From Nitrospirota bacterium (lineage in GTDB: Bacteria > Nitrospinota_A > UBA7883), in contig JAJRZK010000024.1 of the NCBI GenBank assembly GCA_024275315.1, positions 1 through 64,000 of the forward strand: a DNA stretch of 64,000 nucleotides. Reading direction: 5' to 3'. The translations under genes and the position numbers were made by a program. The notes beneath the pieces were generated by a model that was not told the origin of the DNA, searched no databases, and worked only from the letters and a program-made list of their open reading frames with translations. Of the stretch, positions 21,656 to 44,001 are shown in pieces (the first letter of the stretch is position 1; each line of letters opens with the position of its first letter).

Positions 21656-21663
21656 TTTGCCCG

Positions 21664-22293: not shown

Positions 22294-22346
22294 CGAAAGA
22301 ATCTGCGCAAAATACGCTGGGATAATTTACAATGGTTCGCCGCTTT

Positions 22347-22352: not shown

Positions 22353-22439
22353 GTACATTGCTTGCCTTGCGCGGCTGGCAATGCCATACAGACCTCGACG
22401 CAACACCGTCTTGCACGGCGTCACAGGATGTCGTTACGG

Positions 22440-23711: not shown

Positions 23712-23719
23712 GCCATTCG

Positions 23720-24538
23720 CTACCGTTTTCTCATTCTCATGCGCTTGTTGAGCGAGTCGATTTTCCTGTCCACCAGCTCTTTGTCGGGAAATTCCTTTTT
23801 CATGGTCTCATAAACCTCAAGCGCCTCTTTAAGCTGGTCCATATCCTCATAGGCCGAGGCGACGCTGAGATGGATGTCGTACAGGTATTTGTTGCCAGGA
23901 TAATCGTGCAACAATTGCTTTAGCAGTACAATCGCTTTTTTCGGCTCGCCATTTATCAACCTGGAGCTTGCCACCTGGTAGCGCGCGTCCAGGGCAAGAT
24001 CACTATCGGGATACTCCTGAAGAAGGGTTTGGTACTCGATGATCGCCTGGGCGTATTCATGCTTGTTAAAATACGCCTTGGCTATAAGATACCTGTATGC
24101 GTCCGGTTTGACTGAGTCGGAAAACTCGCTGAGGATTCTTTGGTATTGCAGGATCGCAAGATCATGATCGCCCAGCGAGCGCTCGTATATCTCCGCGATA
24201 TACTTGTATGCGCGCAGTGTAAGCTTGCTCTTGTCTTCACGCTCGACGACCCGGGAAAAATAATCAAGCGCCCGGGTGGGATCGTCCAGATTCAGGTAGT
24301 GTATCTCCCCCAGGCGGAAAAGGGCCATGGACGCAAGTTTCGAGTCGGGATATTCCGCCGTAATCAACCGGAACTTGTCAACCGCCTCGACATATTCATC
24401 CTTTAGCCAATGATCCTGGGCCGAGTCGTACAGCGCCTTGTCCCGCCCCTGGCAACCGGATAAAACCATCAGCAGCATAAGAAAAAATCCCTGCGTGGCA
24501 TTCCGTACCCATGAGCGTTTAATCCGCCTTTGCGTCAT
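23720..24538 (-). CDS. TPR-repeat lipoprotein (BamD/YfiO-like)
   Basis: Lipoprotein of 272 aa. A basic N-terminus and hydrophobic stretch lead to the lipobox LSGC with Cys29, followed by Gln-Gly, consistent with outer-membrane sorting. The rest is about five TPR-like repeats (for example [30 protein letters not shown]). I chose the ATG at 24538, which overlaps the end of gyrA by 20 bp and has AGGAGCAGGA upstream; a longer frame to 24592 lacks support. Similar proteins work in outer-membrane assembly (BamD) or as Tol-Pal partners, but specific assignment is not possible. Confidence 0.82.
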
Positions 24539-26981
24539 CCTGGTCCTGCTCCTGCAACCTGCCCACGGATTGAACCCGGTCTCCTTTGCCAAGGCTGATC
24601 ACCCGAACTCCTTTCGTGTTGCGACCGATAACGGACACATCGGAAGCCTCGATACGTATCACCACGCCTGAACCGCTGATTATTATCAGGTCGTCACCGG
24701 CCTCGACACGTTTGACAGCCACAACAGGGCCCGACGAAGAGTCGATCTTGATATCTATCACGCCCTTCCCCCCGCGCCGCTGCAGCGGATACCTGGCCAG
24801 CTGGGTCCTCTTACCATACCCGTCTTCCCTGATTGTAAAATAGGACGCCTGCCCTTTGTCGTCCTGGTCAAACATGGCCATGCCGACAACAGAGCCGCCT
24901 TCCAAAAGGGATATGGCGCGAACGCCCCTGGCCGATCTACCCATGGGGCGGATGTCGTTTTCGTGGAACCGGATAGCGTATCCATAGCTGGTGGACAGGA
25001 CAACGTTCTGCCTGCCATCGGTGACGTTCGCGGCGATAACGTCGTCATCGTCGTCGAGACCGGTGGCGATGATGCCGCCCGCGTGAATTCTTGAAAAAGC
25101 GTCCAGGCTGGTCTTTTTAATATATCCCTTGCGCGTGGCGGTCACCAGGAACATGTCTTTACCGAAAGCCTTCACCGGAAATATCGTCGCCACTTTTTCC
25201 TCCGGCTGAAGCTGGATCAGGTTTACCACGGCCTTGCCCTTCGCCACCCTGGAGGCGGCCGGTATTTCGTACACTTTCTTACGGAAAATACGCCCGCGGT
25301 TGGTGAAAAACAGGATATTGTCATGCGTGGATGCGACGAAAAGATCCTGTACGATGTCCTCCTCTTTCATCCTCATACCCTTCACCCCCTTGCCGCCACG
25401 TTTCTGGGCGCGAAATTCGGCTACCGGGTTGCGCTTTATATATCCGGACATCGAGGTGGTCACAACCATGTCCTCCTCGGCTATCAGGTCCTCCATGTCC
25501 ACTTCGCTCTCAACGGGAACCAGGCGGGTGCGCCTTTCGTCACCGAACACGGTTTTGAGGGTCAGCAGTTCTTTTTTGATAATATTGAGCTTTTCATCCT
25601 CATGGTCGCGGATATACTCCAGCCTCTCTATCGTCTGCAATATTTGCTTCCTCTCGTCGATTATCTTGCGCCTCTCCATCCCGGTGAGCCTTTGGAGCCG
25701 CAACTCTAAAATCGCTTTCGCCTGCTCCAGCGTGAACCCGAATTGTTCCACAAGCCCCGACCTGGCCTGTTCCGGTCCCTCCGCGGCCCTGATCAGCTTT
25801 ATGACTTCATTGAGATTTTCAAGGGCCTTGACGTATCCGGCCAGGATATGCTCCCGTTGCCCGGCTTTTCTCAGGTCGAACAGCGTCCTGCGTGTGACAA
25901 TCACGCGGCGGTGCTCCACGAAATGAAAAAGAGCCTCCTTCAGGTTAAGCTGTCTCGGCCGCCCGTTCACCAGGGCGATCATGATCACGCCAAAAGTGTC
26001 CTGTAGCTGGGTATGCTTGTAAAGCTGGTTAAGCGCCACCTGGCCGACGGCGTCTTTTTTAAGCTCTATCACCACACGCATCCCTTCACGGTCCGATTCG
26101 TCCCGTATATCGGATATGCCGGTGATTTTCTTGTCCTTGGTAAGCTCGGCGATTTTCTCCACCAGCTTGGCCTTGTTTACCTGGTAGGGAATCTCGTTGA
26201 TGACGATTCGCTCCCGGTTCCCCTTTTCCATCTGTTCGATTTCCGCCTTGCCGCGCATCACTATCAGCCCGCGCCCCGTGACATAGGCCTCGCGGATGCC
26301 CGCGGAGCCGTGAATCTCCCCCGCGGTGGGGAAATCAGGCCCTTTTATATGCTCCATCAGGTCGAATACGCTGCATTCGGGATTGTCGATAAGGTGAACC
26401 AGACCGTCGACCACCTCGCCAAGGTTGTGGGGCGGGATATTTGTCGCCATCCCCACCGCGATGCCGCTGGCGCCGTTTATCAGAAGGTTGGGAATCTTCG
26501 ACGGCAGGACCTTGGGTTCGCTTTCGGATTCGTCGTAGTTCGGGATGAAATCGACCGTTTCCTTGTCCAGGTCCTCAAGCAATTCAGCGCTTATTTTCTC
26601 GAGCCGGGCTTCGGTGTAACGCATGGCCGCAGGAGAATCGCCGTCTATGGAGCCGAAGTTGCCCTGGCCATCCACCAGCCTGTAACGCAATGAAAAAACC
26701 TGCGCCATTCGGACAAGGGCGTCATAAACCGCGGCGTCGCCGTGTGGGTGGTATTTGGCTATGACTTCACCGACCGTCCGGGCGGATTTCTTGTACGCTT
26801 TGTTATGGTGGTTGCCCATCCCGTGCATCGCATACAGAATCCTGCGGTGCACAGGTTTTAACCCGTCCCGCACGTCCGGCAACGCACGGGACACGATCAC
26901 GCTCATTGAATATTCGAGAAAAGACGATTTCATCTCGTCTTCTATGGCGACGGGAAGAGTCCTCAGATTTGCTTCAGTCAT
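24519..26981 (-). CDS. gyrA: DNA gyrase subunit A
   Basis: Type II topoisomerase subunit of 820 aa that cuts and rejoins DNA during negative supercoiling, with GyrB as partner. The catalytic tyrosine is Tyr122 ([10 protein letters not shown]). The C-terminal domain carries the GyrA box QRRGGKG at 734-740, which marks gyrase rather than topoisomerase IV. Numbering matches E. coli in the quinolone region: position 83 is Ala ([10 protein letters not shown]) and position 87 is Asp. Ala83 in place of Ser is known to lower quinolone sensitivity in some bacteria. It starts the gyrA-lipoprotein-serS unit. Confidence 0.97.
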
Positions 26982-27031
26982 TCTGTCTCTTTAAAAATGT
27001 ACCAATAATTATCGATGTAGCACAATCGGGC

Positions 27032-27060
27032 ATTTTATCATTTTTCATGCCTGTATTAAA
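27032..27060 (-). promoter_or_regulatory. Candidate promoter for gyrA
   Basis: On the minus strand TAAAAT (27032-27037) lies 17 bp from a weak TTTAAT (27055-27060), giving a leader of about 45 nt to the gyrA ATG. The remaining gap to 27228 (end of the cytochrome b gene) shows no gene and no clear terminator. Confidence 0.3.
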
Positions 27061-27228
27061 CCTTTTTATTTGATAATTGACGTGGAAAATCAACGAATTA
27101 CACCGCGACACCACCGATCCGGCCTGTAATGTTCGACGTACAGCTCCGCGCTGTTCGTCCAAAACCCGGGAATGATCGGCTACCCTGGCGGGTTAAGCGG
27201 GATGAATTAAAAAGTCAATACAAAGCGG

Positions 27229-28041
27229 CTAGAAATAAAACGCGGCCATTATGTGGAACAGCGCAACCACAAACAGGGCCGAGGTAAACCCGACATGCCA
27301 TATCAGCCACCGGTTCATCAGCCTCTGGTACGCCTGGCTTCTTCTGATCTCGATTATGTCCATCACCTTTTCAACCATCCACTGGAAAATCTCCCGTTCC
27401 CGGTCGCTGACCACGTCCAGATCGCGGGCGGCGGCGTTCGGGTCCTTTGAGGATTGATCGTACCTGGACAGCAGGGCCTCCTGCTGTTCACTGGTAGGGA
27501 GGGTAATCGACAGGGCCGGAAGGATATGGCGCTGGTACACCCGTTCAAAGGCCGGTGTTCTTCCCTCGAGCTTGCTGGATATTTCACGCAACAGGGCGTT
27601 GACACTGTCCTGCATTTCGTCCTTGTAGACCGGGTCCTGAAGTGTCATTGTCATGGTTTTGGGGACGACACCCTGCACCGCAATTCCCCAAACGCCCGTC
27701 AGCGCGACTCCAAGCGTCAAAAAGCCGGTGGCAAACCCTGCGCCAAGCCCCAGCGACCCGCCTGAATGGAGAAACATCAGCGCAACCGCGGCCAGCCCTG
27801 TCCACACATGGGCTATCTTCCAGTATATAAGCTGGCCGGGGGCCTGCAACAGCTCCCTTTTCCGGAGGCTGTACATCACAGACGTCACCACCATCACCAG
27901 CGTGACCCATCCGAACGCAGGTTTTACAATCGACACAGAGAACGACGCGGCCGGCCCAAACGGGGCGGTGGCCATCGTGGCAAAAGCGATCACCATGCAG
28001 ACCGCCGACGAGGCGAGCAGCAACCTGGCGTCTTTTGTCAT
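27229..28041 (-). CDS. Membrane cytochrome b-like protein
   Basis: Integral membrane protein of 270 aa with about five hydrophobic segments (6-26, 38-58, 74-93, 101-123, 246-268) and a soluble loop of about 120 residues between the last two. Four histidines fall as two pairs spaced 14 residues: His78/His92 in one helix and His249/His263 in another. This is the pattern of bis-heme b ligation in quinone-linked cytochromes. I start it at the ATG overlapping the upstream stop (ATGA). It probably links the quinone pool to the Fe-S and multiheme subunits encoded just upstream. No family is recognised with certainty. Confidence 0.75.
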   Translation of the reverse strand: MTKDARLLLASSAVCMVIAFATMATAPFGPAASFSVSIVKPAFGWVTLVMVVTSVMYSLRKRELLQAPGQLIYWKIAHVWTGLAAVALMFLHSGGSLGLGAGFATGFLTLGVALTGVWGIAVQGVVPKTMTMTLQDPVYKDEMQDSVNALLREISSKLEGRTPAFERVYQRHILPALSITLPTSEQQEALLSRYDQSSKDPNAAARDLDVVSDREREIFQWMVEKVMDIIEIRRSQAYQRLMNRWLIWHVGFTSALFVVALFHIMAAFYF

Positions 28042-29540
28042 TTCGCCACCCGTCCGTAGGTAGTGAAATACTCCGACGGCTTGACCGATTTTATGGCTCC
28101 GGTGGGGCAGTTGTGCTGGCATCCGAGGTGATCGAAATCCATGCAGAGGTCGCATTTGACCGCCCGTTGCCTGACGGCTTTTTTGCCGCCTGCGGCCACG
28201 CGGTCGTCCGCGGCCACGTGGTCGCCCGCGGTCACTCGACCGCCACCAATCCATGACCGTACCCTGTCGGTCATTCGCAGTCCGGCGCCGTCTGTTTGCC
28301 TGTCCACTATGCTTATATTCCCGAAGGGGCATCTTCGCGCGCAGTTTCCGCATCCGATGCACTCGTCCGTATGATAGACCTCGCCATGGGTGTTGCGCTT
28401 GATGGCGCCGGTCGGGCATCCGATCATGCATGTAGGTTCGCGGCAGTGCCGGCAGGACGTGGGGATGAGAATGTTCCTGTACCGGACGCCGTTATGCGTG
28501 ATCCTTGTAACTCCCTGATGGAGCTTGGCGCACGTGACGATGCAGTTCAGGCATCGAACGCACTGGTTGAGGTCCAGTATCAAAACGGCGTCCGCGGTTA
28601 AAATATCATGGCTGGCGACCCATTTGAGCATATCCTGCTCGGTTTCGCTCTGGATTTTCGTCGAGTCTGTGTATCGCTCCGCGGCGATAGCCTTCAGGCC
28701 GGAGGCGACCTCCGGATACGCCAGAAGTATCTTGTTGAACTCCCGCTTCCCTATCTTCACAAGCTCGACCCTGGTCAGCGCCCGGGCGGTGGCGGACCTT
28801 CGCCGGTTGCCGAACAAGGAGCGTTCTCCAAAATAGAAACCTCTGCCCAGATAGGCCAGGATAAACTCTTCTTTCTTTTTCGCCTTCGACGGGCTGATGT
28901 ACGCCTTGTCGAACCGGGAATCGAAAAACCGGCTCTCGTCCTTGTCCGCCGCTCTGGATATCTGCACAAAACCGTCCCGGATAAGATAAAAGGCGTCCGC
29001 GTCGTCACCTTCGGAGAAAATGACATCCCCCTTGGCGCGCACCTCGAGCTTCACCTGTTTGGCGATGGCTTTCATGGTGGGGCCCTCTATCCCGGAAAGA
29101 ACGTCGACGGATTTAAGCGAGCCGAGCAGGGCCCTCTCGCGGTAGCGCTCGTCCAGCCTCTCCTTGACGGCCGGAGTGGAGTCTATGAGCTTTAAAAAAC
29201 CCTCCCTGCCGATCCGGAGCAACCTGGCTTCCCGCACACACCTGACCTCCGCCAACCGGGGGTTGCCAGACAGTATCGACATCTCCCCCAAAAGCTCACC
29301 GGGTCCCAGACTCCGGACCTGCCTCTTCTTCCCCGTCTCCTTGTCGGTGACCAGCACTTCGAAAGCTCCCTTGAGCACGATATAGCATATCTGCTCATAC
29401 TCACCCTCCTCGATGATAACCTCCCCGGCCGGGATATGGACCAGGTCGGCCTCCTGGACAAGGGTCTCTATAGCTTCCTTGGACGCCCCTGCAAAAAAGG
29501 GGCTCTTGGCGATCAGCTCCACCAGGCTGGCAAACTCCAT
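28038..29540 (-). CDS. Dual cyclic-nucleotide-binding domain, four-cluster ferredoxin fusion
   Basis: Protein of 500 aa. Two cNMP-binding (CRP-type) beta-barrels span about 5-130 and 145-290, with phosphate-cassette-like segments GELLGEMSILSGNPRLAEV and FGERSLFGNRRRSATARA. After about 325 there are four cysteine quartets: CVRCLNCIVTC, CRHCREPTCMIGC, CIGCGNCARRC and CDLCMDFDHLGCQHNC, fitting four [4Fe-4S] clusters as in DmsB/HycB-type electron-transfer subunits. The fusion suggests electron transfer gated by a nucleotide second messenger. The ATG shares one base with the stop of the cytochrome c gene. An 18-bp minisatellite lies between clusters 3 and 4. Confidence 0.85.
   Translation of the reverse strand: MEFASLVELIAKSPFFAGASKEAIETLVQEADLVHIPAGEVIIEEGEYEQICYIVLKGAFEVLVTDKETGKKRQVRSLGPGELLGEMSILSGNPRLAEVRCVREARLLRIGREGFLKLIDSTPAVKERLDERYRERALLGSLKSVDVLSGIEGPTMKAIAKQVKLEVRAKGDVIFSEGDDADAFYLIRDGFVQISRAADKDESRFFDSRFDKAYISPSKAKKKEEFILAYLGRGFYFGERSLFGNRRRSATARALTRVELVKIGKREFNKILLAYPEVASGLKAIAAERYTDSTKIQSETEQDMLKWVASHDILTADAVLILDLNQCVRCLNCIVTCAKLHQGVTRITHNGVRYRNILIPTSCRHCREPTCMIGCPTGAIKRNTHGEVYHTDECIGCGNCARRCPFGNISIVDRQTDGAGLRMTDRVRSWIGGGRVTAGDHVAADDRVAAGGKKAVRQRAVKCDLCMDFDHLGCQHNCPTGAIKSVKPSEYFTTYGRVAK
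28185..28235. repeat. 18-bp minisatellite inside ferredoxin coding sequence
   Basis: About 2.7 in-frame copies of an 18-bp unit encode V-T/A-A-G/D-D-H/R, between the third and fourth Fe-S cysteine groups. Unit length is a multiple of three, so copy-number change would alter linker length without frameshift. Confidence 0.75.
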
Positions 29541-30868
29541 CAACCTTCCGCTCCCTTTTGCGTAATCGATCCCGTCGCGGGTTCGTTCATATCTCTGCCA
29601 CTCTCCATTTTGCCATCATCGATCAGGCGCGGCGACCTCAGGGCGTACTCCAGCCCCGGCGGCTCCGTAGTGGGGGCGATTGTGAAATTCGACTTTACAA
29701 CCTCCGGGTCGTACAGGCTCTGCAACGAAAACGCCAGCCCATGGCAACGGACGCAGACATAAACCGCCATCCGCTCCTTGGTGGACACCAACCACGACTC
29801 GTTATGCTCGGTCACTCCGCCATTCCCCTCCAGCCGGGGCATGTGACATCCGGCGCAATCGACGCCTGTCATCGGTTTGTATAAAAACACCGGGTCGGAC
29901 AGATACCTGTAGTGGCCCGACTTACCGTAGTTGCGCACATGGGCGCTCTGACCATGGCACAGCTCGCACGCTTTCATCCTCGCGTCCTGCGTCCCGAGGC
30001 TGTGAACGTCATGGCAACCACCGCACCCCACCTGGCTTCCAGGGTCCGAAAAGGGCTCTAGCCCCTGCAGATCGTGGACACCGTGACGGCCGGCCCCATA
30101 CCCCCTGGTCTGGATAGGGTGGCATTCCTGGCAGACTTTTGCGCCCGGCCGCATGTTGACGCCGCCACCGCGCGCGTCCGCCCCGGCTTTTCCCTTGTGG
30201 CACCTGTCGCATGTGGCCTGCGTGCCGTAGTGCCGGCTGATCTGGTATTGGGCCATGATGACAGGGTTGCTCCTGTAAAAGGGGGTGCGACGCATCTTGT
30301 TTATGCCGGCCGATCCTATACCGATATGCTCGACCTTTGCGGGGGGTGCGACCACTTTCGACCTCGGCAAAATCATCCTCCTGTCGGCGCGGGCGAAGTC
30401 GTCGGCCCCGATGTTGAAATGGTATGTGTGGCATGACGGGGTCGAGCAGGATTCCAGATCGAACCTGGCGTGACCCTCGTTGAGGCGCCTCTTCGGGTGG
30501 CACATGACGCAAAGACCCGGCGGACCGGTATATCCCGACCTGGCCTCGACGGACCGGTGCTCCCTGTGGCAGGTCACGCACGAAAGAGAGGTCAACCGCT
30601 CCGGCACTTCGGCCTTGACGGGGTTGACCATCCTCGCGGCGCCATGGGTGTCGACGCCGATAAATTTTTCATGACACGAAAGACATTTCCGGTCGTCCAC
30701 ACCGCTCCATTTCTCATGGCACGCGAAACAACCGTCGGCGAACCGCTTGTGGCCATCGAACATCGGACCGGGCCTGAACATGGACATTTTCGCGCCGGTT
30801 ATCGCCGACACCATGACCGCGGTTATGATAATCGTCGTCAACGTGATCAGAGCCGTGTGTTTTTTCAT
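29540..30868 (-). CDS. Undecaheme c-type cytochrome
   Basis: Membrane-anchored or secreted multiheme cytochrome of 442 aa. An N-terminal hydrophobic segment (about 7-25) acts as signal or anchor to the periplasmic side. I count ten CXXCH heme-binding motifs (CFACH, CLSCH, CVTCH, CVMCH, CDRCH, CQECH, CGGCH, CELCH, CAGCH, CVRCH) plus one wider CX4CH (CSTPSCH), so eleven hemes. Several extra histidines (HREHRS, HDVHSLG) can be distal ligands. It is the first gene of a three-gene overlapping redox operon and presumably passes electrons to or from the Fe-S/cytochrome b pair. The electron partner outside the operon is unknown. Confidence 0.9.
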   Translation of the reverse strand: MKKHTALITLTTIIITAVMVSAITGAKMSMFRPGPMFDGHKRFADGCFACHEKWSGVDDRKCLSCHEKFIGVDTHGAARMVNPVKAEVPERLTSLSCVTCHREHRSVEARSGYTGPPGLCVMCHPKRRLNEGHARFDLESCSTPSCHTYHFNIGADDFARADRRMILPRSKVVAPPAKVEHIGIGSAGINKMRRTPFYRSNPVIMAQYQISRHYGTQATCDRCHKGKAGADARGGGVNMRPGAKVCQECHPIQTRGYGAGRHGVHDLQGLEPFSDPGSQVGCGGCHDVHSLGTQDARMKACELCHGQSAHVRNYGKSGHYRYLSDPVFLYKPMTGVDCAGCHMPRLEGNGGVTEHNESWLVSTKERMAVYVCVRCHGLAFSLQSLYDPEVVKSNFTIAPTTEPPGLEYALRSPRLIDDGKMESGRDMNEPATGSITQKGAEG

Positions 30869-30974
30869 CCCGCTATTATGACATTAAAACCGGCGCGTTT
30901 GACGGGTGATTATCGCGAATTTACCCGGGCGCAACCGTTACCGCGCCATTGTCTGCCATTCCCCCCGGACCCGT

Positions 30975-30994
30975 CCCGCCCTTTCCGGGGCGGG
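30975..30994. promoter_or_regulatory. GC-rich hairpin in the divergent control region
   Basis: CCCGCCC (30975-30981) and GGGCGGG (30988-30994) form a perfect 7-bp stem with a 6-nt loop. It lies in the 5' region of the cytochrome c operon. It could act on mRNA leader structure; there is no T-tract in either direction. Confidence 0.35.
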
Positions 30995-31000
30995 GCGATG

Positions 31001-31021
31001 TTATGTAGTATTACTTCATAA
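31001..31021. promoter_or_regulatory. Operator-like 21-bp dyad (RpiR/HexR-like)
   Basis: A 21-bp near-perfect inverted repeat with one mismatched pair, in the gap between the divergent cytochrome and rpiR-BMC operons. Its core TGTAGTATTACTTCA (31004-31018) fits 14 of 15 positions of TGTARTWWWAYTACA, the consensus I recall for HexR, an RpiR-family regulator. It lies 24 bp upstream of the rpiR -35 box. It is the obvious candidate for autoregulation of the BMC operon and may also affect the cytochrome operon. Confidence 0.5.
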
Positions 31022-31044
31022 ATATTAAAATAATGTAAAAAAAC

Positions 31045-31073
31045 TTGATATATCCTCTTAGCCGGTGTACAAT
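31045..31073 (+). promoter_or_regulatory. Sigma-70-type promoter of the rpiR-BMC operon
   Basis: TTGATA (31045-31050), a 17-bp spacer and TACAAT (31068-31073): each hexamer matches five of six consensus bases. Transcription would start near 31080. This excludes the GTG at 31065 as a start codon and supports the ATG at 31098. Confidence 0.65.
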
Positions 31074-31097
31074 GCAGGACAAAACACGGGATCGACC

Positions 31098-32012
31098 ATG
31101 CAATTGACAGGTAATACATCCATGAGTGTCCGGGGCGGATCAAAGCGGCGCAAGCAGGCTCCGGCCCTGTCCGGGGCGGGGGCCAGGATCAGGGGGATCA
31201 TGCCGTCTCTCCTGCCGGCGGAACGCAAGGTGGCCGAATACGTGGTCGCAAGCCCCGAATCGATAATCGGGGAGTCGATAGGCGAGGTGGCGGCGCATTC
31301 GGGCGTGTCGGAAGCCACCATCATAAGGTTTTGCCGGACCGCGGGATTCAGAGGGTTTCAGGATCTGAAAATCAGCCTGGCCAGGCTTCTGGTCAGCCCC
31401 CTGGCGTCGGCCCTGCACGAGGATGTGACCGCCAGGGACGACATGGCCACTGTCGCCCGCAAGGTGTTCGCCGCGAACATCGACTCTCTCAACGATACGC
31501 TGGCGCTTGTCGACCCGGACATGGTGTCCGCCGCCGTGCAGATCGTATCCGGCGCCGGCAAACTGCTTGTAATAGGTGTGGGCACCTCCGCCCCTGTGGC
31601 TTTTGACGCCTACGCGAAATTGATGCGGCTGGGTGTTGCGGCCACTTTGCAGACAGATTCGCATCTTCAGATGATGGAGGCGGCCCTGCTGGGGAAGGGT
31701 GACGCGATACTCGCCATCAGCCATTCCGGATCCACCATGGACCCTGTCGAAACCGTCAAGGTCGGCAAATCGGCCGGGGCGAAGGCTGTCTGCATAACGT
31801 GCAACTCGCTTTCTCCCCTGGCGAAGATATCAGACGTGACACTGCTCACCGCCAGCCGCGAGACCAGGTTCCGCTCCTAGGCGCTGGCGTCGAGGATCGC
31901 GCAGGCCAGCGTGATCGACCTGCTTTATGTGGCTATCGGCCTGAAAGAGAAAAAGCGCGCCCTGGCCAGCGCAAAAAGGATAGAGGACGTTATAACCTCG
32001 AAACAGTATTGA
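31098..32012 (+). pseudogene. RpiR-family SIS transcriptional regulator interrupted by in-frame TAG
   Basis: Read through the stop, this frame gives 304 residues, the normal size for RpiR regulators. It has an N-terminal helix-turn-helix (AAHSGVSEATIIRFCRTAGFRG) and a C-terminal SIS sugar-phosphate sensor (VIGVGTSAPVAFDAY, AISHSGSTMDPVETV). Codon 261 is TAG (31878-31880) in ETRFRS*ALASRIAQ, where relatives usually have Glu (GAG), so one base change explains it. Frame and family likeness continue to the TGA at 32010. Options are a sequencing error, a recent mutation leaving a protein without its last SIS helices, or UAG read-through. It is first in the BMC operon, so it probably regulates the shell genes in response to a phosphosugar. 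Confidence 0.85.
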
Positions 32013-32068
32013 ACATGGCGGACGCCGTAACAGGGTCTTAAGCCAGACCGGATTATATAGGAGAGACA

Positions 32069-32698
32069 ATGATTTCATTACGCACATACATATTGCTGGA
32101 CAGTTTGCAGGAGCAACTGGCTTCGTATATCGGATCGACCGCCAAGGGGTTTTTGCCGGTGCCGGGGGTGGCGTCCCTGTTCGTGGAGATAGCGCCGGGC
32201 CTTGCGATCAACCGTGTCACCGACGCCGCGCTCAAGGCGACCCGGGTCCAGCCCGCCATACAGATAGTGGAGAGAGCTTTCGGGTTGCTGGAGGTTCACG
32301 ACCATGACAAGGGAGAGGTCATGAGCGCAGGAGAGGCGATCCTCGATTTTCTCGATCTTACGGAGGGGGAGCGGATCAGGCCGAACCTCGTGTCGAACCA
32401 GATCATCCGGTCGATGGAGGCGTACCAGTGCCAGCTGATCAACCGCAACAGGAGCGGGTCGATGATACTTCCCGGCGAGTCGCTTTTCATACTGGAGACC
32501 GAGCCGGCGGGGTACGCCGTGTACGCCGCTAACGAGGCGGAAAAGGCAGCCCGGGTGAAGCTGGTCGATGTGAGGCCGTTCGGAGCATTCGGCCGGCTTT
32601 ACATGTCGGGCCCTGAATCGGAGGTGGATTCCGCCGCCAAGGCCGCGGTATCGGCTATCGAAGGTGTTACCGGCGTCGAAAATGTAAGGAAAAAATAG
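32069..32698 (+). CDS. BMC-T trimeric shell protein (tandem BMC domains)
   Basis: Shell protein of 209 aa with two fused BMC domains. The first spans about 40-105 ([22 protein letters not shown] … [10 protein letters not shown]), the second about 135-205 ([31 protein letters not shown] … [10 protein letters not shown]). BMC-T trimers form pseudohexagonal tiles with a larger, sometimes gated pore for cofactors or bulky substrates. It has a strong AGGAGAG ribosome-binding site and starts 56 bp after the regulator frame. A preceding segment of about 35 residues is not part of the BMC fold. Confidence 0.85.
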
Positions 32699-32727
32699 TC
32701 ATTTATTTTAAACAGGAGATATCAAAA

Positions 32728-33021
32728 ATGTCCGAAGCTTTGGGTTTGATCGAAACAAAGGGGTTCGTCGGGATGGTGGAAGCCTCCGACGCCATGGTCA
32801 AGGCCGCCAAGGTAGAGCTGGTGGGATACGAAAAAATCGGCGGCGGTTATGTGACCTCGATCGTCCGCGGCGACGTGGCCGCGGTGAAAGCGGCTACCGA
32901 CGCAGGTTCGCGCGCGGCCGAAAAGGTGGGGGAGCTGGTGTCGGTGCACGTGATACCGCGTCCGCACAGCAACATTGACAAGGCGCTCCCGCTGGGCAGG
33001 GGCGACGCGGTCGAGGGGTAG
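32728..33021 (+). CDS. BMC-H hexameric shell protein (PduA/EutM/CcmK type)
   Basis: Canonical shell protein of 97 aa. It begins [20 protein letters not shown], and the pore loop is KIGGG in [17 protein letters not shown]. Hexamers tile the shell faces and pass small polar substrates. AGGAGAT lies 8 nt before the ATG. The adjoining P-type gene starts 3 bp downstream. No unusual extension is present; it is the standard facet tile of this compartment. Confidence 0.96.
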
Positions 33022-33024
33022 GCC

Positions 33025-33339
33025 GTGTTGATCGGCAAGATCGTGGGGACGGTGGTTTCCACGCACAAGACGGAGTCGCTTGAGGGGCTCAAGCTCTATG
33101 TCGTGAAAAACATAGGCGCCGACGGCAAAGACGCCAGCGGATATGTCGTCGCGGCCGATTCGGTGGGGTCGGGCGTGGGGGAGGTCGTCTTGTACGCCAC
33201 CGGATCATCCGCCCGCCAGACCAGCGTGACTGACAATCGCCCTGTAGACGCGATTATTATGGGCGTCATCGACACCTGGGACATCGAGGGCGATACCATC
33301 TACACCAAGGATGAATCGGCGGAAACCGCGGATGAATAA
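33025..33339 (+). CDS. BMC-P pentameric vertex protein (EutN/CcmL type)
   Basis: Vertex protein of 104 aa that closes the compartment. It opens with MLIGKIVGTVVSTHKTESLEGLKLYVV, the EutN/CcmL signature, and continues through ADSVGSGVGEVVLYATGSSAR. The start is GTG with a G-rich ribosome-binding region overlapping the BMC-H stop. Having T, H and P types in order gives the minimal set for a closed shell. Confidence 0.95.
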   Translation: MLIGKIVGTVVSTHKTESLEGLKLYVVKNIGADGKDASGYVVAADSVGSGVGEVVLYATGSSARQTSVTDNRPVDAIIMGVIDTWDIEGDTIYTKDESAETADE

Positions 33340-33363
33340 ACAAATTGCAAGTGAGTTTTAGCG

Positions 33364-33856
33364 ATGAAATTTGAGACGGACCAGATAGCCGAAATTGTGG
33401 CCAGGGTGGTCGCTCGTATCGACGCCGGCCACAACCCGCCTTCCCGTCAAACCCCCGATCGCCCGGCTCCCTCCTTCGTGGAGAGGCCGGCCGGCCAGAC
33501 CGGGATATACGGCTCTGTCGGTGAGGCGGTGGCCGCGGCCAGGGTGTCGTTTGAGAGCCTGGGCGAAGCGTCCCTTGAAAAGCGGGGTGAGATTATAGAA
33601 TCCATGCGGGCCGCCGCCCGGGAAGAGGCCCGGACGCAGGCGGAGCTTACGGTGGAGGAGACCCGGCTCGGAAGGGTGGAGGACAAATATCTGAAGAACA
33701 TGCTTGCGGCGGACAAGACCCCCGGCGTGGAGATTCTAAGGCCGGTCTGTTACACGGGTGACAACGGGATGGCGCTGGTGGAACGCGCTCCGTACGGAGT
33801 GATAGGGTCCATAACTCCCTGCACCAACCCGGCGGCCACCGTTGTCTCCAACTCTA
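33364..33856 (+). CDS. BMC-associated CoA-acylating aldehyde dehydrogenase, N-terminal part (PduP/EutE-like), cut at the axis
   Basis: Only the first 164 residues are genuine. After the axis the frame reads its own antisense up to 33963. Residues 1-20 form an amphipathic helix (MKFETDQIAEIVARVVARID) followed by a Pro/Gly-rich linker, as in the encapsulation peptides that target cargo into BMCs. The body (YGSVGEAVAAARVSFESL … ERAPYGVIGSITPCTNPAATVVSNS) is the N-terminal NAD(P)/CoA-binding part of PduP/EutE-type enzymes, which turn a compartment aldehyde into acyl-CoA. Full-length relatives have about 460-490 residues. This cargo identifies an aldehyde-processing metabolosome; the signature enzyme is not in the window. 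Confidence 0.88.
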
Positions 33857-33872
33857 TAGAGTTGGAGACAAC
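33841..33872. other. Symmetry axis / fold-back junction
   Basis: The dyad axis lies inside the self-complementary core CTCTATAGAG, between 33856 and 33857. Left of the axis the sequence is ordinary aldehyde dehydrogenase coding sequence (…NPAATVVSNS). Right of it the frame reads the antisense of the same gene until a stop ending at 33963. A short native palindrome such as CTATAG could have primed a fold-back during amplification or library preparation, but the native downstream sequence is not visible here. Confidence 0.9.
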
Positions 33873-34349
33873 GGTGGCCGCCGGGTTGGTGCAGGGAGTT
33901 ATGGACCCTATCACTCCGTACGGAGCGCGTTCCACCAGCGCCATCCCGTTGTCACCCGTGTAACAGACCGGCCTTAGAATCTCCACGCCGGGGGTCTTGT
34001 CCGCCGCAAGCATGTTCTTCAGATATTTGTCCTCCACCCTTCCGAGCCGGGTCTCCTCCACCGTAAGCTCCGCCTGCGTCCGGGCCTCTTCCCGGGCGGC
34101 GGCCCGCATGGATTCTATAATCTCACCCCGCTTTTCAAGGGACGCTTCGCCCAGGCTCTCAAACGACACCCTGGCCGCGGCCACCGCCTCACCGACAGAG
34201 CCGTATATCCCGGTCTGGCCGGCCGGCCTCTCCACGAAGGAGGGAGCCGGGCGATCGGGGGTTTGACGGGAAGGCGGGTTGTGGCCGGCGTCGATACGAG
34301 CGACCACCCTGGCCACAATTTCGGCTATCTGGTCCGTCTCAAATTTCAT
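33857..34349 (-). CDS. Aldehyde dehydrogenase N-terminal part (mirror copy)
   Basis: Reverse-complement copy of the PduP/EutE-like fragment, also ending at the axis with 164 genuine residues. The two fragments meet head-on at their truncated 3' ends, so neither copy can be a complete gene. This is strong evidence that the join is not natural. Confidence 0.88.
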
Positions 34350-34373
34350 CGCTAAAACTCACTTGCAATTTGT

Positions 34374-34688
34374 TTATTCATCCGCGGTTTCCGCCGATTC
34401 ATCCTTGGTGTAGATGGTATCGCCCTCGATGTCCCAGGTGTCGATGACGCCCATAATAATCGCGTCTACAGGGCGATTGTCAGTCACGCTGGTCTGGCGG
34501 GCGGATGATCCGGTGGCGTACAAGACGACCTCCCCCACGCCCGACCCCACCGAATCGGCCGCGACGACATATCCGCTGGCGTCTTTGCCGTCGGCGCCTA
34601 TGTTTTTCACGACATAGAGCTTGAGCCCCTCAAGCGACTCCGTCTTGTGCGTGGAAACCACCGTCCCCACGATCTTGCCGATCAACAC
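34374..34688 (-). CDS. BMC-P vertex protein (mirror copy)
   Basis: Identical 104-aa EutN/CcmL-type pentamer protein of the shell vertices. It has a GTG start and sits 3 bp after the BMC-H copy in the same operon order. Confidence 0.95.
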   Translation of the reverse strand: MLIGKIVGTVVSTHKTESLEGLKLYVVKNIGADGKDASGYVVAADSVGSGVGEVVLYATGSSARQTSVTDNRPVDAIIMGVIDTWDIEGDTIYTKDESAETADE

Positions 34689-34691
34689 GGC

Positions 34692-34985
34692 CTACCCCTC
34701 GACCGCGTCGCCCCTGCCCAGCGGGAGCGCCTTGTCAATGTTGCTGTGCGGACGCGGTATCACGTGCACCGACACCAGCTCCCCCACCTTTTCGGCCGCG
34801 CGCGAACCTGCGTCGGTAGCCGCTTTCACCGCGGCCACGTCGCCGCGGACGATCGAGGTCACATAACCGCCGCCGATTTTTTCGTATCCCACCAGCTCTA
34901 CCTTGGCGGCCTTGACCATGGCGTCGGAGGCTTCCACCATCCCGACGAACCCCTTTGTTTCGATCAAACCCAAAGCTTCGGACAT
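34692..34985 (-). CDS. BMC-H shell protein (mirror copy)
   Basis: Identical 97-aa hexameric facet protein with the KIGGG pore loop. The good ribosome-binding site AGGAGAT is preserved on this arm. Confidence 0.96.
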
Positions 34986-35014
34986 TTTTGATATCTCCTG
35001 TTTAAAATAAATGA

Positions 35015-35644
35015 CTATTTTTTCCTTACATTTTCGACGCCGGTAACACCTTCGATAGCCGATACCGCGGCCTTGGCGGCGGAATCCACCTCCGATTCAG
35101 GGCCCGACATGTAAAGCCGGCCGAATGCTCCGAACGGCCTCACATCGACCAGCTTCACCCGGGCTGCCTTTTCCGCCTCGTTAGCGGCGTACACGGCGTA
35201 CCCCGCCGGCTCGGTCTCCAGTATGAAAAGCGACTCGCCGGGAAGTATCATCGACCCGCTCCTGTTGCGGTTGATCAGCTGGCACTGGTACGCCTCCATC
35301 GACCGGATGATCTGGTTCGACACGAGGTTCGGCCTGATCCGCTCCCCCTCCGTAAGATCGAGAAAATCGAGGATCGCCTCTCCTGCGCTCATGACCTCTC
35401 CCTTGTCATGGTCGTGAACCTCCAGCAACCCGAAAGCTCTCTCCACTATCTGTATGGCGGGCTGGACCCGGGTCGCCTTGAGCGCGGCGTCGGTGACACG
35501 GTTGATCGCAAGGCCCGGCGCTATCTCCACGAACAGGGACGCCACCCCCGGCACCGGCAAAAACCCCTTGGCGGTCGATCCGATATACGAAGCCAGTTGC
35601 TCCTGCAAACTGTCCAGCAATATGTATGTGCGTAATGAAATCAT
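35015..35644 (-). CDS. BMC-T shell protein (mirror copy)
   Basis: Identical 209-aa tandem BMC-domain shell protein, 29 bp upstream of the BMC-H copy in transcript order. Confidence 0.85.
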
Positions 35645-35700
35645 TGTCTCTCCTATATAATCCGGTCTGGCTTAAGACCCTGTTACGGCGTCCGCCATGT

Positions 35701-36615
35701 TCAATACTGTTTCGAGGTTATAACGTCCTCTATCCTTTTTGCGCTGGCCAGGGCGCGCTTTTTCTCTTTCAGGCCGATAGCCACATAAAGCAGGTCGATC
35801 ACGCTGGCCTGCGCGATCCTCGACGCCAGCGCCTAGGAGCGGAACCTGGTCTCGCGGCTGGCGGTGAGCAGTGTCACGTCTGATATCTTCGCCAGGGGAG
35901 AAAGCGAGTTGCACGTTATGCAGACAGCCTTCGCCCCGGCCGATTTGCCGACCTTGACGGTTTCGACAGGGTCCATGGTGGATCCGGAATGGCTGATGGC
36001 GAGTATCGCGTCACCCTTCCCCAGCAGGGCCGCCTCCATCATCTGAAGATGCGAATCTGTCTGCAAAGTGGCCGCAACACCCAGCCGCATCAATTTCGCG
36101 TAGGCGTCAAAAGCCACAGGGGCGGAGGTGCCCACACCTATTACAAGCAGTTTGCCGGCGCCGGATACGATCTGCACGGCGGCGGACACCATGTCCGGGT
36201 CGACAAGCGCCAGCGTATCGTTGAGAGAGTCGATGTTCGCGGCGAACACCTTGCGGGCGACAGTGGCCATGTCGTCCCTGGCGGTCACATCCTCGTGCAG
36301 GGCCGACGCCAGGGGGCTGACCAGAAGCCTGGCCAGGCTGATTTTCAGATCCTGAAACCCTCTGAATCCCGCGGTCCGGCAAAACCTTATGATGGTGGCT
36401 TCCGACACGCCCGAATGCGCCGCCACCTCGCCTATCGACTCCCCGATTATCGATTCGGGGCTTGCGACCACGTATTCGGCCACCTTGCGTTCCGCCGGCA
36501 GGAGAGACGGCATGATCCCCCTGATCCTGGCCCCCGCCCCGGACAGGGCCGGAGCCTGCTTGCGCCGCTTTGATCCGCCCCGGACACTCATGGATGTATT
36601 ACCTGTCAATTGCAT
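35701..36615 (-). pseudogene. RpiR-family regulator with in-frame TAG (mirror copy)
   Basis: Same 304-codon frame and the same amber codon (35833-35835). The stop occurring at the mirrored place shows that both arms derive from one template, so it cannot be counted as independent confirmation of the mutation. Confidence 0.85.
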
Positions 36616-36639
36616 GGTCGATCCCGTGTTTTGTCCTGC

Positions 36640-36668
36640 ATTGTACACCGGCTAAGAGGATATATCAA
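36640..36668 (-). promoter_or_regulatory. rpiR-BMC promoter (mirror copy)
   Basis: Mirror of the TTGATA-17-TACAAT promoter, read on the minus strand: -10 at 36640-36645 and -35 at 36663-36668. Confidence 0.65.
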
Positions 36669-36691
36669 GTTTTTTTACATTATTTTAATAT

Positions 36692-36712
36692 TTATGAAGT
36701 AATACTACATAA
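36692..36712. promoter_or_regulatory. RpiR/HexR-like 21-bp dyad (mirror copy)
   Basis: Mirror of the operator-like dyad between the divergent cytochrome and BMC operons, with the same single mismatched pair. The GC hairpin mirror follows at 36719-36738. Confidence 0.5.
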
Positions 36713-36844
36713 CATCGCCCCGCCCCGGAAAGGGCGGGACGGGTCCGGGGGGAATGGCAGACAATGGCGCGGTAACGGTTGCGCCCGGGTAAATTCGCGA
36801 TAATCACCCGTCAAACGCGCCGGTTTTAATGTCATAATAGCGGG

Positions 36845-38173
36845 ATGAAAAAACACACGGCTCTGATCACGTTGACGACGATTATCATAACCGCGGTCAT
36901 GGTGTCGGCGATAACCGGCGCGAAAATGTCCATGTTCAGGCCCGGTCCGATGTTCGATGGCCACAAGCGGTTCGCCGACGGTTGTTTCGCGTGCCATGAG
37001 AAATGGAGCGGTGTGGACGACCGGAAATGTCTTTCGTGTCATGAAAAATTTATCGGCGTCGACACCCATGGCGCCGCGAGGATGGTCAACCCCGTCAAGG
37101 CCGAAGTGCCGGAGCGGTTGACCTCTCTTTCGTGCGTGACCTGCCACAGGGAGCACCGGTCCGTCGAGGCCAGGTCGGGATATACCGGTCCGCCGGGTCT
37201 TTGCGTCATGTGCCACCCGAAGAGGCGCCTCAACGAGGGTCACGCCAGGTTCGATCTGGAATCCTGCTCGACCCCGTCATGCCACACATACCATTTCAAC
37301 ATCGGGGCCGACGACTTCGCCCGCGCCGACAGGAGGATGATTTTGCCGAGGTCGAAAGTGGTCGCACCCCCCGCAAAGGTCGAGCATATCGGTATAGGAT
37401 CGGCCGGCATAAACAAGATGCGTCGCACCCCCTTTTACAGGAGCAACCCTGTCATCATGGCCCAATACCAGATCAGCCGGCACTACGGCACGCAGGCCAC
37501 ATGCGACAGGTGCCACAAGGGAAAAGCCGGGGCGGACGCGCGCGGTGGCGGCGTCAACATGCGGCCGGGCGCAAAAGTCTGCCAGGAATGCCACCCTATC
37601 CAGACCAGGGGGTATGGGGCCGGCCGTCACGGTGTCCACGATCTGCAGGGGCTAGAGCCCTTTTCGGACCCTGGAAGCCAGGTGGGGTGCGGTGGTTGCC
37701 ATGACGTTCACAGCCTCGGGACGCAGGACGCGAGGATGAAAGCGTGCGAGCTGTGCCATGGTCAGAGCGCCCATGTGCGCAACTACGGTAAGTCGGGCCA
37801 CTACAGGTATCTGTCCGACCCGGTGTTTTTATACAAACCGATGACAGGCGTCGATTGCGCCGGATGTCACATGCCCCGGCTGGAGGGGAATGGCGGAGTG
37901 ACCGAGCATAACGAGTCGTGGTTGGTGTCCACCAAGGAGCGGATGGCGGTTTATGTCTGCGTCCGTTGCCATGGGCTGGCGTTTTCGTTGCAGAGCCTGT
38001 ACGACCCGGAGGTTGTAAAGTCGAATTTCACAATCGCCCCCACTACGGAGCCGCCGGGGCTGGAGTACGCCCTGAGGTCGCCGCGCCTGATCGATGATGG
38101 CAAAATGGAGAGTGGCAGAGATATGAACGAACCCGCGACGGGATCGATTACGCAAAAGGGAGCGGAAGGTTGA
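36845..38173 (+). CDS. Undecaheme c-type cytochrome (mirror copy)
   Basis: Identical 442-aa periplasmic cytochrome with ten CXXCH sites and one CX4CH. First gene of the redox operon on this arm. The stop overlaps the next ATG by one base. Confidence 0.9.
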   Translation: MKKHTALITLTTIIITAVMVSAITGAKMSMFRPGPMFDGHKRFADGCFACHEKWSGVDDRKCLSCHEKFIGVDTHGAARMVNPVKAEVPERLTSLSCVTCHREHRSVEARSGYTGPPGLCVMCHPKRRLNEGHARFDLESCSTPSCHTYHFNIGADDFARADRRMILPRSKVVAPPAKVEHIGIGSAGINKMRRTPFYRSNPVIMAQYQISRHYGTQATCDRCHKGKAGADARGGGVNMRPGAKVCQECHPIQTRGYGAGRHGVHDLQGLEPFSDPGSQVGCGGCHDVHSLGTQDARMKACELCHGQSAHVRNYGKSGHYRYLSDPVFLYKPMTGVDCAGCHMPRLEGNGGVTEHNESWLVSTKERMAVYVCVRCHGLAFSLQSLYDPEVVKSNFTIAPTTEPPGLEYALRSPRLIDDGKMESGRDMNEPATGSITQKGAEG

Positions 38174-39675
38174 TGGAGTTTGCCAGCCTGGTGGAGCTGA
38201 TCGCCAAGAGCCCCTTTTTTGCAGGGGCGTCCAAGGAAGCTATAGAGACCCTTGTCCAGGAGGCCGACCTGGTCCATATCCCGGCCGGGGAGGTTATCAT
38301 CGAGGAGGGTGAGTATGAGCAGATATGCTATATCGTGCTCAAGGGAGCTTTCGAAGTGCTGGTCACCGACAAGGAGACGGGGAAGAAGAGGCAGGTCCGG
38401 AGTCTGGGACCCGGTGAGCTTTTGGGGGAGATGTCGATACTGTCTGGCAACCCCCGGTTGGCGGAGGTCAGGTGTGTGCGGGAAGCCAGGTTGCTCCGGA
38501 TCGGCAGGGAGGGTTTTTTAAAGCTCATAGACTCCACTCCGGCCGTCAAGGAGAGGCTGGACGAGCGCTACCGCGAGAGGGCCCTGCTCGGCTCGCTTAA
38601 ATCCGTCGACGTTCTTTCCGGGATAGAGGGCCCCACCATGAAAGCCATCGCCAAACAGGTGAAGCTCGAGGTGCGCGCCAAGGGGGATGTCATTTTCTCC
38701 GAAGGTGACGACGCGGACGCCTTTTATCTTATCCGGGACGGTTTTGTGCAGATATCCAGAGCGGCGGACAAGGACGAGAGCCGGTTTTTCGATTCCCGGT
38801 TCGACAAGGCGTACATCAGCCCGTCGAAGGCGAAAAAGAAAGAAGAGTTTATCCTGGCCTATCTGGGCAGAGGTTTCTATTTTGGAGAACGCTCCTTGTT
38901 CGGCAACCGGCGAAGGTCCGCCACCGCCCGGGCGCTGACCAGGGTCGAGCTTGTGAAGATAGGGAAGCGGGAGTTCAACAAGATACTTCTGGCGTATCCG
39001 GAGGTCGCCTCCGGCCTGAAGGCTATCGCCGCGGAGCGATACACAGACTCGACGAAAATCCAGAGCGAAACCGAGCAGGATATGCTCAAATGGGTCGCCA
39101 GCCATGATATTTTAACCGCGGACGCCGTTTTGATACTGGACCTCAACCAGTGCGTTCGATGCCTGAACTGCATCGTCACGTGCGCCAAGCTCCATCAGGG
39201 AGTTACAAGGATCACGCATAACGGCGTCCGGTACAGGAACATTCTCATCCCCACGTCCTGCCGGCACTGCCGCGAACCTACATGCATGATCGGATGCCCG
39301 ACCGGCGCCATCAAGCGCAACACCCATGGCGAGGTCTATCATACGGACGAGTGCATCGGATGCGGAAACTGCGCGCGAAGATGCCCCTTCGGGAATATAA
39401 GCATAGTGGACAGGCAAACAGACGGCGCCGGACTGCGAATGACCGACAGGGTACGGTCATGGATTGGTGGCGGTCGAGTGACCGCGGGCGACCACGTGGC
39501 CGCGGACGACCGCGTGGCCGCAGGCGGCAAAAAAGCCGTCAGGCAACGGGCGGTCAAATGCGACCTCTGCATGGATTTCGATCACCTCGGATGCCAGCAC
39601 AACTGCCCCACCGGAGCCATAAAATCGGTCAAGCCGTCGGAGTATTTCACTACCTACGGACGGGTGGCGAAATGA
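38173..39675 (+). CDS. cNMP-binding/four-cluster ferredoxin fusion (mirror copy)
   Basis: Identical 500-aa protein with two cNMP-binding domains and sixteen cluster cysteines. The 18-bp minisatellite lies at 39478-39528. Confidence 0.85.
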   Translation: MEFASLVELIAKSPFFAGASKEAIETLVQEADLVHIPAGEVIIEEGEYEQICYIVLKGAFEVLVTDKETGKKRQVRSLGPGELLGEMSILSGNPRLAEVRCVREARLLRIGREGFLKLIDSTPAVKERLDERYRERALLGSLKSVDVLSGIEGPTMKAIAKQVKLEVRAKGDVIFSEGDDADAFYLIRDGFVQISRAADKDESRFFDSRFDKAYISPSKAKKKEEFILAYLGRGFYFGERSLFGNRRRSATARALTRVELVKIGKREFNKILLAYPEVASGLKAIAAERYTDSTKIQSETEQDMLKWVASHDILTADAVLILDLNQCVRCLNCIVTCAKLHQGVTRITHNGVRYRNILIPTSCRHCREPTCMIGCPTGAIKRNTHGEVYHTDECIGCGNCARRCPFGNISIVDRQTDGAGLRMTDRVRSWIGGGRVTAGDHVAADDRVAAGGKKAVRQRAVKCDLCMDFDHLGCQHNCPTGAIKSVKPSEYFTTYGRVAK

Positions 39676-40484
39676 CAAAAGACGCCAGGTTGCTGCTCGC
39701 CTCGTCGGCGGTCTGCATGGTGATCGCTTTTGCCACGATGGCCACCGCCCCGTTTGGGCCGGCCGCGTCGTTCTCTGTGTCGATTGTAAAACCTGCGTTC
39801 GGATGGGTCACGCTGGTGATGGTGGTGACGTCTGTGATGTACAGCCTCCGGAAAAGGGAGCTGTTGCAGGCCCCCGGCCAGCTTATATACTGGAAGATAG
39901 CCCATGTGTGGACAGGGCTGGCCGCGGTTGCGCTGATGTTTCTCCATTCAGGCGGGTCGCTGGGGCTTGGCGCAGGGTTTGCCACCGGCTTTTTGACGCT
40001 TGGAGTCGCGCTGACGGGCGTTTGGGGAATTGCGGTGCAGGGTGTCGTCCCCAAAACCATGACAATGACACTTCAGGACCCGGTCTACAAGGACGAAATG
40101 CAGGACAGTGTCAACGCCCTGTTGCGTGAAATATCCAGCAAGCTCGAGGGAAGAACACCGGCCTTTGAACGGGTGTACCAGCGCCATATCCTTCCGGCCC
40201 TGTCGATTACCCTCCCTACCAGTGAACAGCAGGAGGCCCTGCTGTCCAGGTACGATCAATCCTCAAAGGACCCGAACGCCGCCGCCCGCGATCTGGACGT
40301 GGTCAGCGACCGGGAACGGGAGATTTTCCAGTGGATGGTTGAAAAGGTGATGGACATAATCGAGATCAGAAGAAGCCAGGCGTACCAGAGGCTGATGAAC
40401 CGGTGGCTGATATGGCATGTCGGGTTTACCTCGGCCCTGTTTGTGGTTGCGCTGTTCCACATAATGGCCGCGTTTTATTTCTAG
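39672..40484 (+). CDS. Membrane cytochrome b-like protein (mirror copy)
   Basis: Identical 270-aa membrane protein with the two 14-spaced histidine pairs. The start overlaps the ferredoxin stop as ATGA. A frame extending upstream to 39282 only shadows the ferredoxin gene. Confidence 0.75.
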   Translation: MTKDARLLLASSAVCMVIAFATMATAPFGPAASFSVSIVKPAFGWVTLVMVVTSVMYSLRKRELLQAPGQLIYWKIAHVWTGLAAVALMFLHSGGSLGLGAGFATGFLTLGVALTGVWGIAVQGVVPKTMTMTLQDPVYKDEMQDSVNALLREISSKLEGRTPAFERVYQRHILPALSITLPTSEQQEALLSRYDQSSKDPNAAARDLDVVSDREREIFQWMVEKVMDIIEIRRSQAYQRLMNRWLIWHVGFTSALFVVALFHIMAAFYF

Positions 40485-40652
40485 CCGCTTTGTATTGACT
40501 TTTTAATTCATCCCGCTTAACCCGCCAGGGTAGCCGATCATTCCCGGGTTTTGGACGAACAGCGCGGAGCTGTACGTCGAACATTACAGGCCGGATCGGT
40601 GGTGTCGCGGTGTAATTCGTTGATTTTCCACGTCAATTATCAAATAAAAAGG

Positions 40653-40681
40653 TTTAATACAGGCATGAAAAATGATAAAAT
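40653..40681 (+). promoter_or_regulatory. Candidate gyrA promoter (mirror copy)
   Basis: TTTAAT-17-TAAAAT on the plus strand, about 50 bp before the gyrA ATG at 40732. The gap 40485-40652 holds no recognisable gene. Confidence 0.3.
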
Positions 40682-40731
40682 GCCCGATTGTGCTACATCG
40701 ATAATTATTGGTACATTTTTAAAGAGACAGA

Positions 40732-43194
40732 ATGACTGAAGCAAATCTGAGGACTCTTCCCGTCGCCATAGAAGACGAGATGAAATCGTCTTTTCTCGAA
40801 TATTCAATGAGCGTGATCGTGTCCCGTGCGTTGCCGGACGTGCGGGACGGGTTAAAACCTGTGCACCGCAGGATTCTGTATGCGATGCACGGGATGGGCA
40901 ACCACCATAACAAAGCGTACAAGAAATCCGCCCGGACGGTCGGTGAAGTCATAGCCAAATACCACCCACACGGCGACGCCGCGGTTTATGACGCCCTTGT
41001 CCGAATGGCGCAGGTTTTTTCATTGCGTTACAGGCTGGTGGATGGCCAGGGCAACTTCGGCTCCATAGACGGCGATTCTCCTGCGGCCATGCGTTACACC
41101 GAAGCCCGGCTCGAGAAAATAAGCGCTGAATTGCTTGAGGACCTGGACAAGGAAACGGTCGATTTCATCCCGAACTACGACGAATCCGAAAGCGAACCCA
41201 AGGTCCTGCCGTCGAAGATTCCCAACCTTCTGATAAACGGCGCCAGCGGCATCGCGGTGGGGATGGCGACAAATATCCCGCCCCACAACCTTGGCGAGGT
41301 GGTCGACGGTCTGGTTCACCTTATCGACAATCCCGAATGCAGCGTATTCGACCTGATGGAGCATATAAAAGGGCCTGATTTCCCCACCGCGGGGGAGATT
41401 CACGGCTCCGCGGGCATCCGCGAGGCCTATGTCACGGGGCGCGGGCTGATAGTGATGCGCGGCAAGGCGGAAATCGAACAGATGGAAAAGGGGAACCGGG
41501 AGCGAATCGTCATCAACGAGATTCCCTACCAGGTAAACAAGGCCAAGCTGGTGGAGAAAATCGCCGAGCTTACCAAGGACAAGAAAATCACCGGCATATC
41601 CGATATACGGGACGAATCGGACCGTGAAGGGATGCGTGTGGTGATAGAGCTTAAAAAAGACGCCGTCGGCCAGGTGGCGCTTAACCAGCTTTACAAGCAT
41701 ACCCAGCTACAGGACACTTTTGGCGTGATCATGATCGCCCTGGTGAACGGGCGGCCGAGACAGCTTAACCTGAAGGAGGCTCTTTTTCATTTCGTGGAGC
41801 ACCGCCGCGTGATTGTCACACGCAGGACGCTGTTCGACCTGAGAAAAGCCGGGCAACGGGAGCATATCCTGGCCGGATACGTCAAGGCCCTTGAAAATCT
41901 CAATGAAGTCATAAAGCTGATCAGGGCCGCGGAGGGACCGGAACAGGCCAGGTCGGGGCTTGTGGAACAATTCGGGTTCACGCTGGAGCAGGCGAAAGCG
42001 ATTTTAGAGTTGCGGCTCCAAAGGCTCACCGGGATGGAGAGGCGCAAGATAATCGACGAGAGGAAGCAAATATTGCAGACGATAGAGAGGCTGGAGTATA
42101 TCCGCGACCATGAGGATGAAAAGCTCAATATTATCAAAAAAGAACTGCTGACCCTCAAAACCGTGTTCGGTGACGAAAGGCGCACCCGCCTGGTTCCCGT
42201 TGAGAGCGAAGTGGACATGGAGGACCTGATAGCCGAGGAGGACATGGTTGTGACCACCTCGATGTCCGGATATATAAAGCGCAACCCGGTAGCCGAATTT
42301 CGCGCCCAGAAACGTGGCGGCAAGGGGGTGAAGGGTATGAGGATGAAAGAGGAGGACATCGTACAGGATCTTTTCGTCGCATCCACGCATGACAATATCC
42401 TGTTTTTCACCAACCGCGGGCGTATTTTCCGTAAGAAAGTGTACGAAATACCGGCCGCCTCCAGGGTGGCGAAGGGCAAGGCCGTGGTAAACCTGATCCA
42501 GCTTCAGCCGGAGGAAAAAGTGGCGACGATATTTCCGGTGAAGGCTTTCGGTAAAGACATGTTCCTGGTGACCGCCACGCGCAAGGGATATATTAAAAAG
42601 ACCAGCCTGGACGCTTTTTCAAGAATTCACGCGGGCGGCATCATCGCCACCGGTCTCGACGACGATGACGACGTTATCGCCGCGAACGTCACCGATGGCA
42701 GGCAGAACGTTGTCCTGTCCACCAGCTATGGATACGCTATCCGGTTCCACGAAAACGACATCCGCCCCATGGGTAGATCGGCCAGGGGCGTTCGCGCCAT
42801 ATCCCTTTTGGAAGGCGGCTCTGTTGTCGGCATGGCCATGTTTGACCAGGACGACAAAGGGCAGGCGTCCTATTTTACAATCAGGGAAGACGGGTATGGT
42901 AAGAGGACCCAGCTGGCCAGGTATCCGCTGCAGCGGCGCGGGGGGAAGGGCGTGATAGATATCAAGATCGACTCTTCGTCGGGCCCTGTTGTGGCTGTCA
43001 AACGTGTCGAGGCCGGTGACGACCTGATAATAATCAGCGGTTCAGGCGTGGTGATACGTATCGAGGCTTCCGATGTGTCCGTTATCGGTCGCAACACGAA
43101 AGGAGTTCGGGTGATCAGCCTTGGCAAAGGAGACCGGGTTCAATCCGTGGGCAGGTTGCAGGAGCAGGACCAGGATGACGCAAAGGCGGATTAA
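40732..43194 (+). CDS. gyrA: DNA gyrase subunit A (mirror copy)
   Basis: Identical 820-aa GyrA with Tyr122, Ala83, Asp87 and the QRRGGKG box. A second identical gyrA in one genome would be extraordinary, which supports the artefact interpretation of this arm. Confidence 0.97.
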
Positions 43195-43993: not shown

Positions 43994-44001
43994 CGAATGG
44001 C

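Follow-up and report, generated by a model that had tools for sequence, protein, structure and literature searches.

The window analysed here (bases 1-64000 of contig C15, 64,000 bases in all, from a genome assembly of 63 contigs and 2.9 Mb) carries a microcompartment locus consisting of two genes for BMC-domain shell proteins, a short open frame and the gene of a microcompartment-type acylating aldehyde dehydrogenase (PduP/EutE-like), all on the forward strand (Table 1). A multihaem cytochrome c (Cytochrom_c3_2, paired CXXCH) is encoded near this locus at 29540-30868 (-). The dehydrogenase frame, which opens at 33364 (+), matches positions 2-156 of the 465 of the NCBIfam profile PRK15398, that is, its N-terminal third, and residues 45-167 of the query match acylating aldehyde dehydrogenases of known structure (PDB 5dru, 5dbv and 4c3s). 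Within codon 165 the frame crosses an axis of mirror symmetry, beyond which it runs antisense to itself until it meets a stop at 33963. A previous reading of the DNA from its letters (the sequence-only reading) had placed such an axis inside a BMC aldehyde dehydrogenase, and the family match upholds that placement. The 34 residues that follow the axis match solely the opposite strand of the dehydrogenase gene (seen at 18 of the 51 loci of relatives), because the right arm is a mirror copy of the left.

Table 1. Features of the window, in the coordinates of contig C15
Feature	Position	Strand	Basis
Left arm, sole independent sequence of C15 (33,856 bases)	1..33856	+	End-to-end reverse-complement identity; repeat scan
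BMC-domain shell protein, CcmP-like, ahead of the dehydrogenase in the same locus	32069..32698	+	Domain match
BMC-domain shell protein, single BMC domain	32728..33021	+	Domain match
Open frame of 104 residues, putative EutN-like, between shell gene and dehydrogenase	33025..33339	+	Position only
Dehydrogenase, N-terminal part (codons 1-165); rest on C26:140-1106	33364..33857	+	Family, PDB and C26 matches
Identical stretch of 139 bases with which C26 also opens; C26 bears the native continuation	33719..33857	+	Own-genome search, alignment
Fold axis, between two bases; native sequence departs from the palindrome at 33858	33856..33857	.	Palindrome and C26 comparison
Tail of the open frame, almost certainly false (34 residues, antisense of the same gene)	33858..33963	+	Relatives' loci comparison
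Right arm, almost certainly a spurious mirror copy, its genes not second copies; runs on to 67712 beyond the window	33857..64000	-	0 mismatches

Extent of the palindrome and its ten-base core

The axis lies at 33856|33857, the exact middle of the range (33841-33872) to which the sequence-only reading had drawn attention. All base pairs about the axis that are visible in the window (3713-64000) are complementary, 30,144 of 30,144, with 0 mismatches. The contig itself ends at 67,712, which is 2 x 33,856, and the axis is thus its midpoint; in a whole-contig comparison C15 proved to be its own reverse complement over 67,712 of 67,712 bases. No exact 20-mer repeat, direct or inverted, was found within the left half of C15 (33,856 bases). 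Second copies of gyrA (40732-43194) and serS (44002-45273) appear in the window as the mirror of the left half, and are not countable as gene content.

At the axis itself stands CTCTATAGAG, the short self-complementary core that had been proposed to coincide with the join. The core is indeed present; it is nonetheless uninformative, because a palindrome appears at the join whenever a sequence is fused to its reverse complement. Perfect 10-base palindromes number 44 in the left half of C15, against about 33 expected.

Continuation of the dehydrogenase gene beyond the axis

A search of the same genome found the first 139 bases of a second contig, C26 (7,112 bases), to be identical to the window just before the axis and one base past it. 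From 33858 the two part: the window reads AGAGTTGGAG, and C26 reads CGGGATGATC. When the frame is read through C26 it comes to 486 residues and reads NPAATVVSNSIGMIAAGNAVVF across the break, where the folded window gives ...NSIELETTVAAG, and alignment puts the first non-homologous residue of the folded frame at residue 166. By itself the C26 part reaches 558 bits, above the PRK15398 cut-off of 403, and covers profile positions 106-465, such that the full-length match is obtained in two parts, one from each contig. The suspicion of a false join, with a native gene that continues non-palindromically, is thereby borne out. The same reading expected the divergence at or just after CTATAG, which is close; the actual point lies inside that motif, two bases before its end.

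The native junction revealed by C26 is CTCTA|TCGGG at the axis (CTCTAT|CGGG at the divergence), with a self-complementary arm of 1 base. With native self-complementarity so limited, CTCTATAGAG arises from the join instead of accounting for it, and only the TA of the core is native. We therefore reject the idea that a short native palindrome caused the fold.

Downstream of the dehydrogenase, C26 encodes an RnfC/PduS-like protein (its actual match is to RnfC) and a PduT-like protein with two BMC domains; two EutN-like proteins, a class II aldolase and a sodium symporter are also encoded there. The EutN-like proteins also match, in relatives, the position equivalent to that of the 104-residue frame of the window. 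On the strength of these sequence comparisons, C15 and C26 are two pieces of one microcompartment operon.

Two sets of homologous loci were compared, 51 from named genomes and 20 from the own genome and its relatives, with some genomes common to both. A single alignment spans residues 155-176 of the dehydrogenase in 50 of the 51 named loci, and the break residue is crossed in one alignment in 19 of the 20 others (one of the 19 being C26 itself). As for the loci that do not cross, L173 matches only residues 193-486, starting at base 2 of its locus, and L203 only residues 376-486. Homologues that truly end or branch at this site, which would have refuted the false-join reading, were looked for in these 51 and 20 partly overlapping loci and none was found. 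The nearest named loci (67-72% identity) belong to five Nitrospinota MAGs and one genome labelled Nitrospirae. In three of the Nitrospinota MAGs (L135, L136 and L137) the order shell, shell, EutN-like, dehydrogenase, RnfC-like, PduT-like, two EutN-like and aldolase is unbroken; gene content and order match those found here, with no order difference seen, except that here the locus is split over two contigs.

These comparisons bear directly upon the notion that the axis is the hairpin telomere or the replication terminus of a linear replicon. A closed hairpin end, with reads passing round it, would also yield a mirror-image contig, and in that respect the symmetry of C15 fits such an end. Against this, the sequence does not end at the axis: the chromosome runs past it on C26, within the same gene and the same operon, which refutes a hairpin telomere for the main population, and relatives keep an unbroken order across the site. 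The native site offers 1 base per arm. Zero-spacer palindromes within 300 bases of the homologous site were also measured in relatives, and the longest at each locus has arms of 3 to 9 bases, mostly 3-5 (60 loci, spanning loci with a minus-strand match left out). Given that the dehydrogenase gene continues on C26, we reject the hairpin or terminus reading, to which we attach next to no credence, in agreement with the disfavour in which the sequence-only reading had held it.

Contig ends and the origin of the fold

The ends of the 63 contigs were compared over 1,000 bases each side; C5, C8, C28 and C51 read as N and were dropped, which left 59 readable contigs. Exact 141-base dovetails occur at ten pairs of contig ends, C4 with itself among them, and in another ten pairs the ends share a 141-mer that points outwards; among these are both ends of C15, each paired with the left end of C13. 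Contigs from MEGAHIT and metaSPAdes have common ends of length maxK, as described in the relevant part of the COBRA paper (PMC10914622), where the k list used for MEGAHIT also ends in 141. The exact 141-base overlaps are indicative of a de Bruijn assembly whose top k was 141, MEGAHIT-like, although the assembler itself is inferred. The overlap of C26 is 138 bases with the unfolded half of C15 and 139 with the folded contig, owing to a one-base match past the axis; it is shorter than the 141 of an ordinary branch and groups with five other short overlaps (124, 115, 49, 46 and 22).

Taken together, we consider it almost certain that the fold is an assembly artefact, in which the operon was broken in the dehydrogenase gene and the contig was then joined to its own reverse complement. 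It is reasonable to postulate two steps. In the first, a short-read de Bruijn assembly (top k 141) would have broken the microcompartment operon within the dehydrogenase gene, the native link to C26 presumably being lost for want of full-length k-mers. In the second, one false fold-back link at the open end would have fused the contig with its own reverse complement, turning 33,856 bases into a record of 67,712. Only two bases (TA) at the native end are matched by its own reverse complement, too few for an ordinary k-mer overlap to have caused the join; the link would more plausibly have come from a chimeric fold-back read or fragment.

A real zero-spacer inverted duplication (2 x 33.9 kb), whether chromosomal or confined to some cells, would likewise give a perfect whole-contig palindrome, given that a very recent duplication could be perfect too. 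Such a duplication, however, would have to stop on both outer sides at the same base, in the same 141-mer where C13 ends, and it would leave the cell with two copies of gyrA and serS and interrupt a catalytic gene, while the intact junction is present on C26. As the outer ends of C15 fall at one 141-mer shared with C13, they have the look of an assembly-graph break. A zero-spacer palindrome with arms of about 33.9 kb is furthermore expected to be unstable. We regard a real duplication as very improbable, and hold it to be just as improbable that a minority of cells might carry a real inverted dimer of the 33.9-kb region, arisen by fold-back replication at the broken dehydrogenase end, whose path the assembler would have chosen.

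If the fold is an artefact, the false link might have originated in chimeras of whole-genome amplification (MDA), as opposed to the assembler or the preparation of the library. Inversions predominate among MDA chimeras (406 of 475 in PMC1855051); in the portion of that paper concerned, however, the inversions have an intervening deletion, whereas the spacer in C15 is zero. Palindromic ends were found nowhere else in the genome, C15 being the only case among the 59 readable contigs (1,000 bases each side), and there is no sign that this genome was amplified. An MDA origin of the artefact appears unlikely.

Precedents, curation and other contig ends

The fold is a true description of the sequence and no biological feature, and artefacts of its kind are already known. 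In the relevant section of a Mycobacterium bovis pangenome study (PMC9455707), palindromic contigs were taken as a likely assembly error and removed. The corresponding passage of a report on cyanobacterial single-cell genomes (PMC12755884) tells of contigs whose second half mirrors the first exactly, which were considered very likely assembly artefacts and were also removed. PMC7111523, as far as the pertinent text goes, deals with direct repeats that are artificially concatenated, and not with mirror copies. C15 displays end-to-end reverse-complement identity together with a non-palindromic native continuation on C26; it is palindromic like the contigs of the first two studies, and differs from them in that its native continuation was found as well.

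The value of the observation is for curation only. The right half of the window holds zero independent sequence. The mirror copy adds 33,856 bases to the size of the assembly, makes single genes such as gyrA and serS look duplicated, and leaves the dehydrogenase falsely cut short. Other features inferred from the mirror symmetry of the window are to be dismissed together with it. Comparison of a contig with its own reverse complement detects such cases at once.

Two minor observations concern contig ends. Matches to the first 167 bases of the window, in part 97-99% identical, lie at C13:1-167, C29:24803-24926 and C17:6904-6994; these bases constitute a dispersed repeat at which C15 ends. Separately, the ends (L015 and L075) of C4, a contig of 29,183 bases, overlap directly by 141 bases end to end, and this overlap also matches the right end of C56; C4 may be an element that is circular or integrated, or the overlap may be a repeat node.
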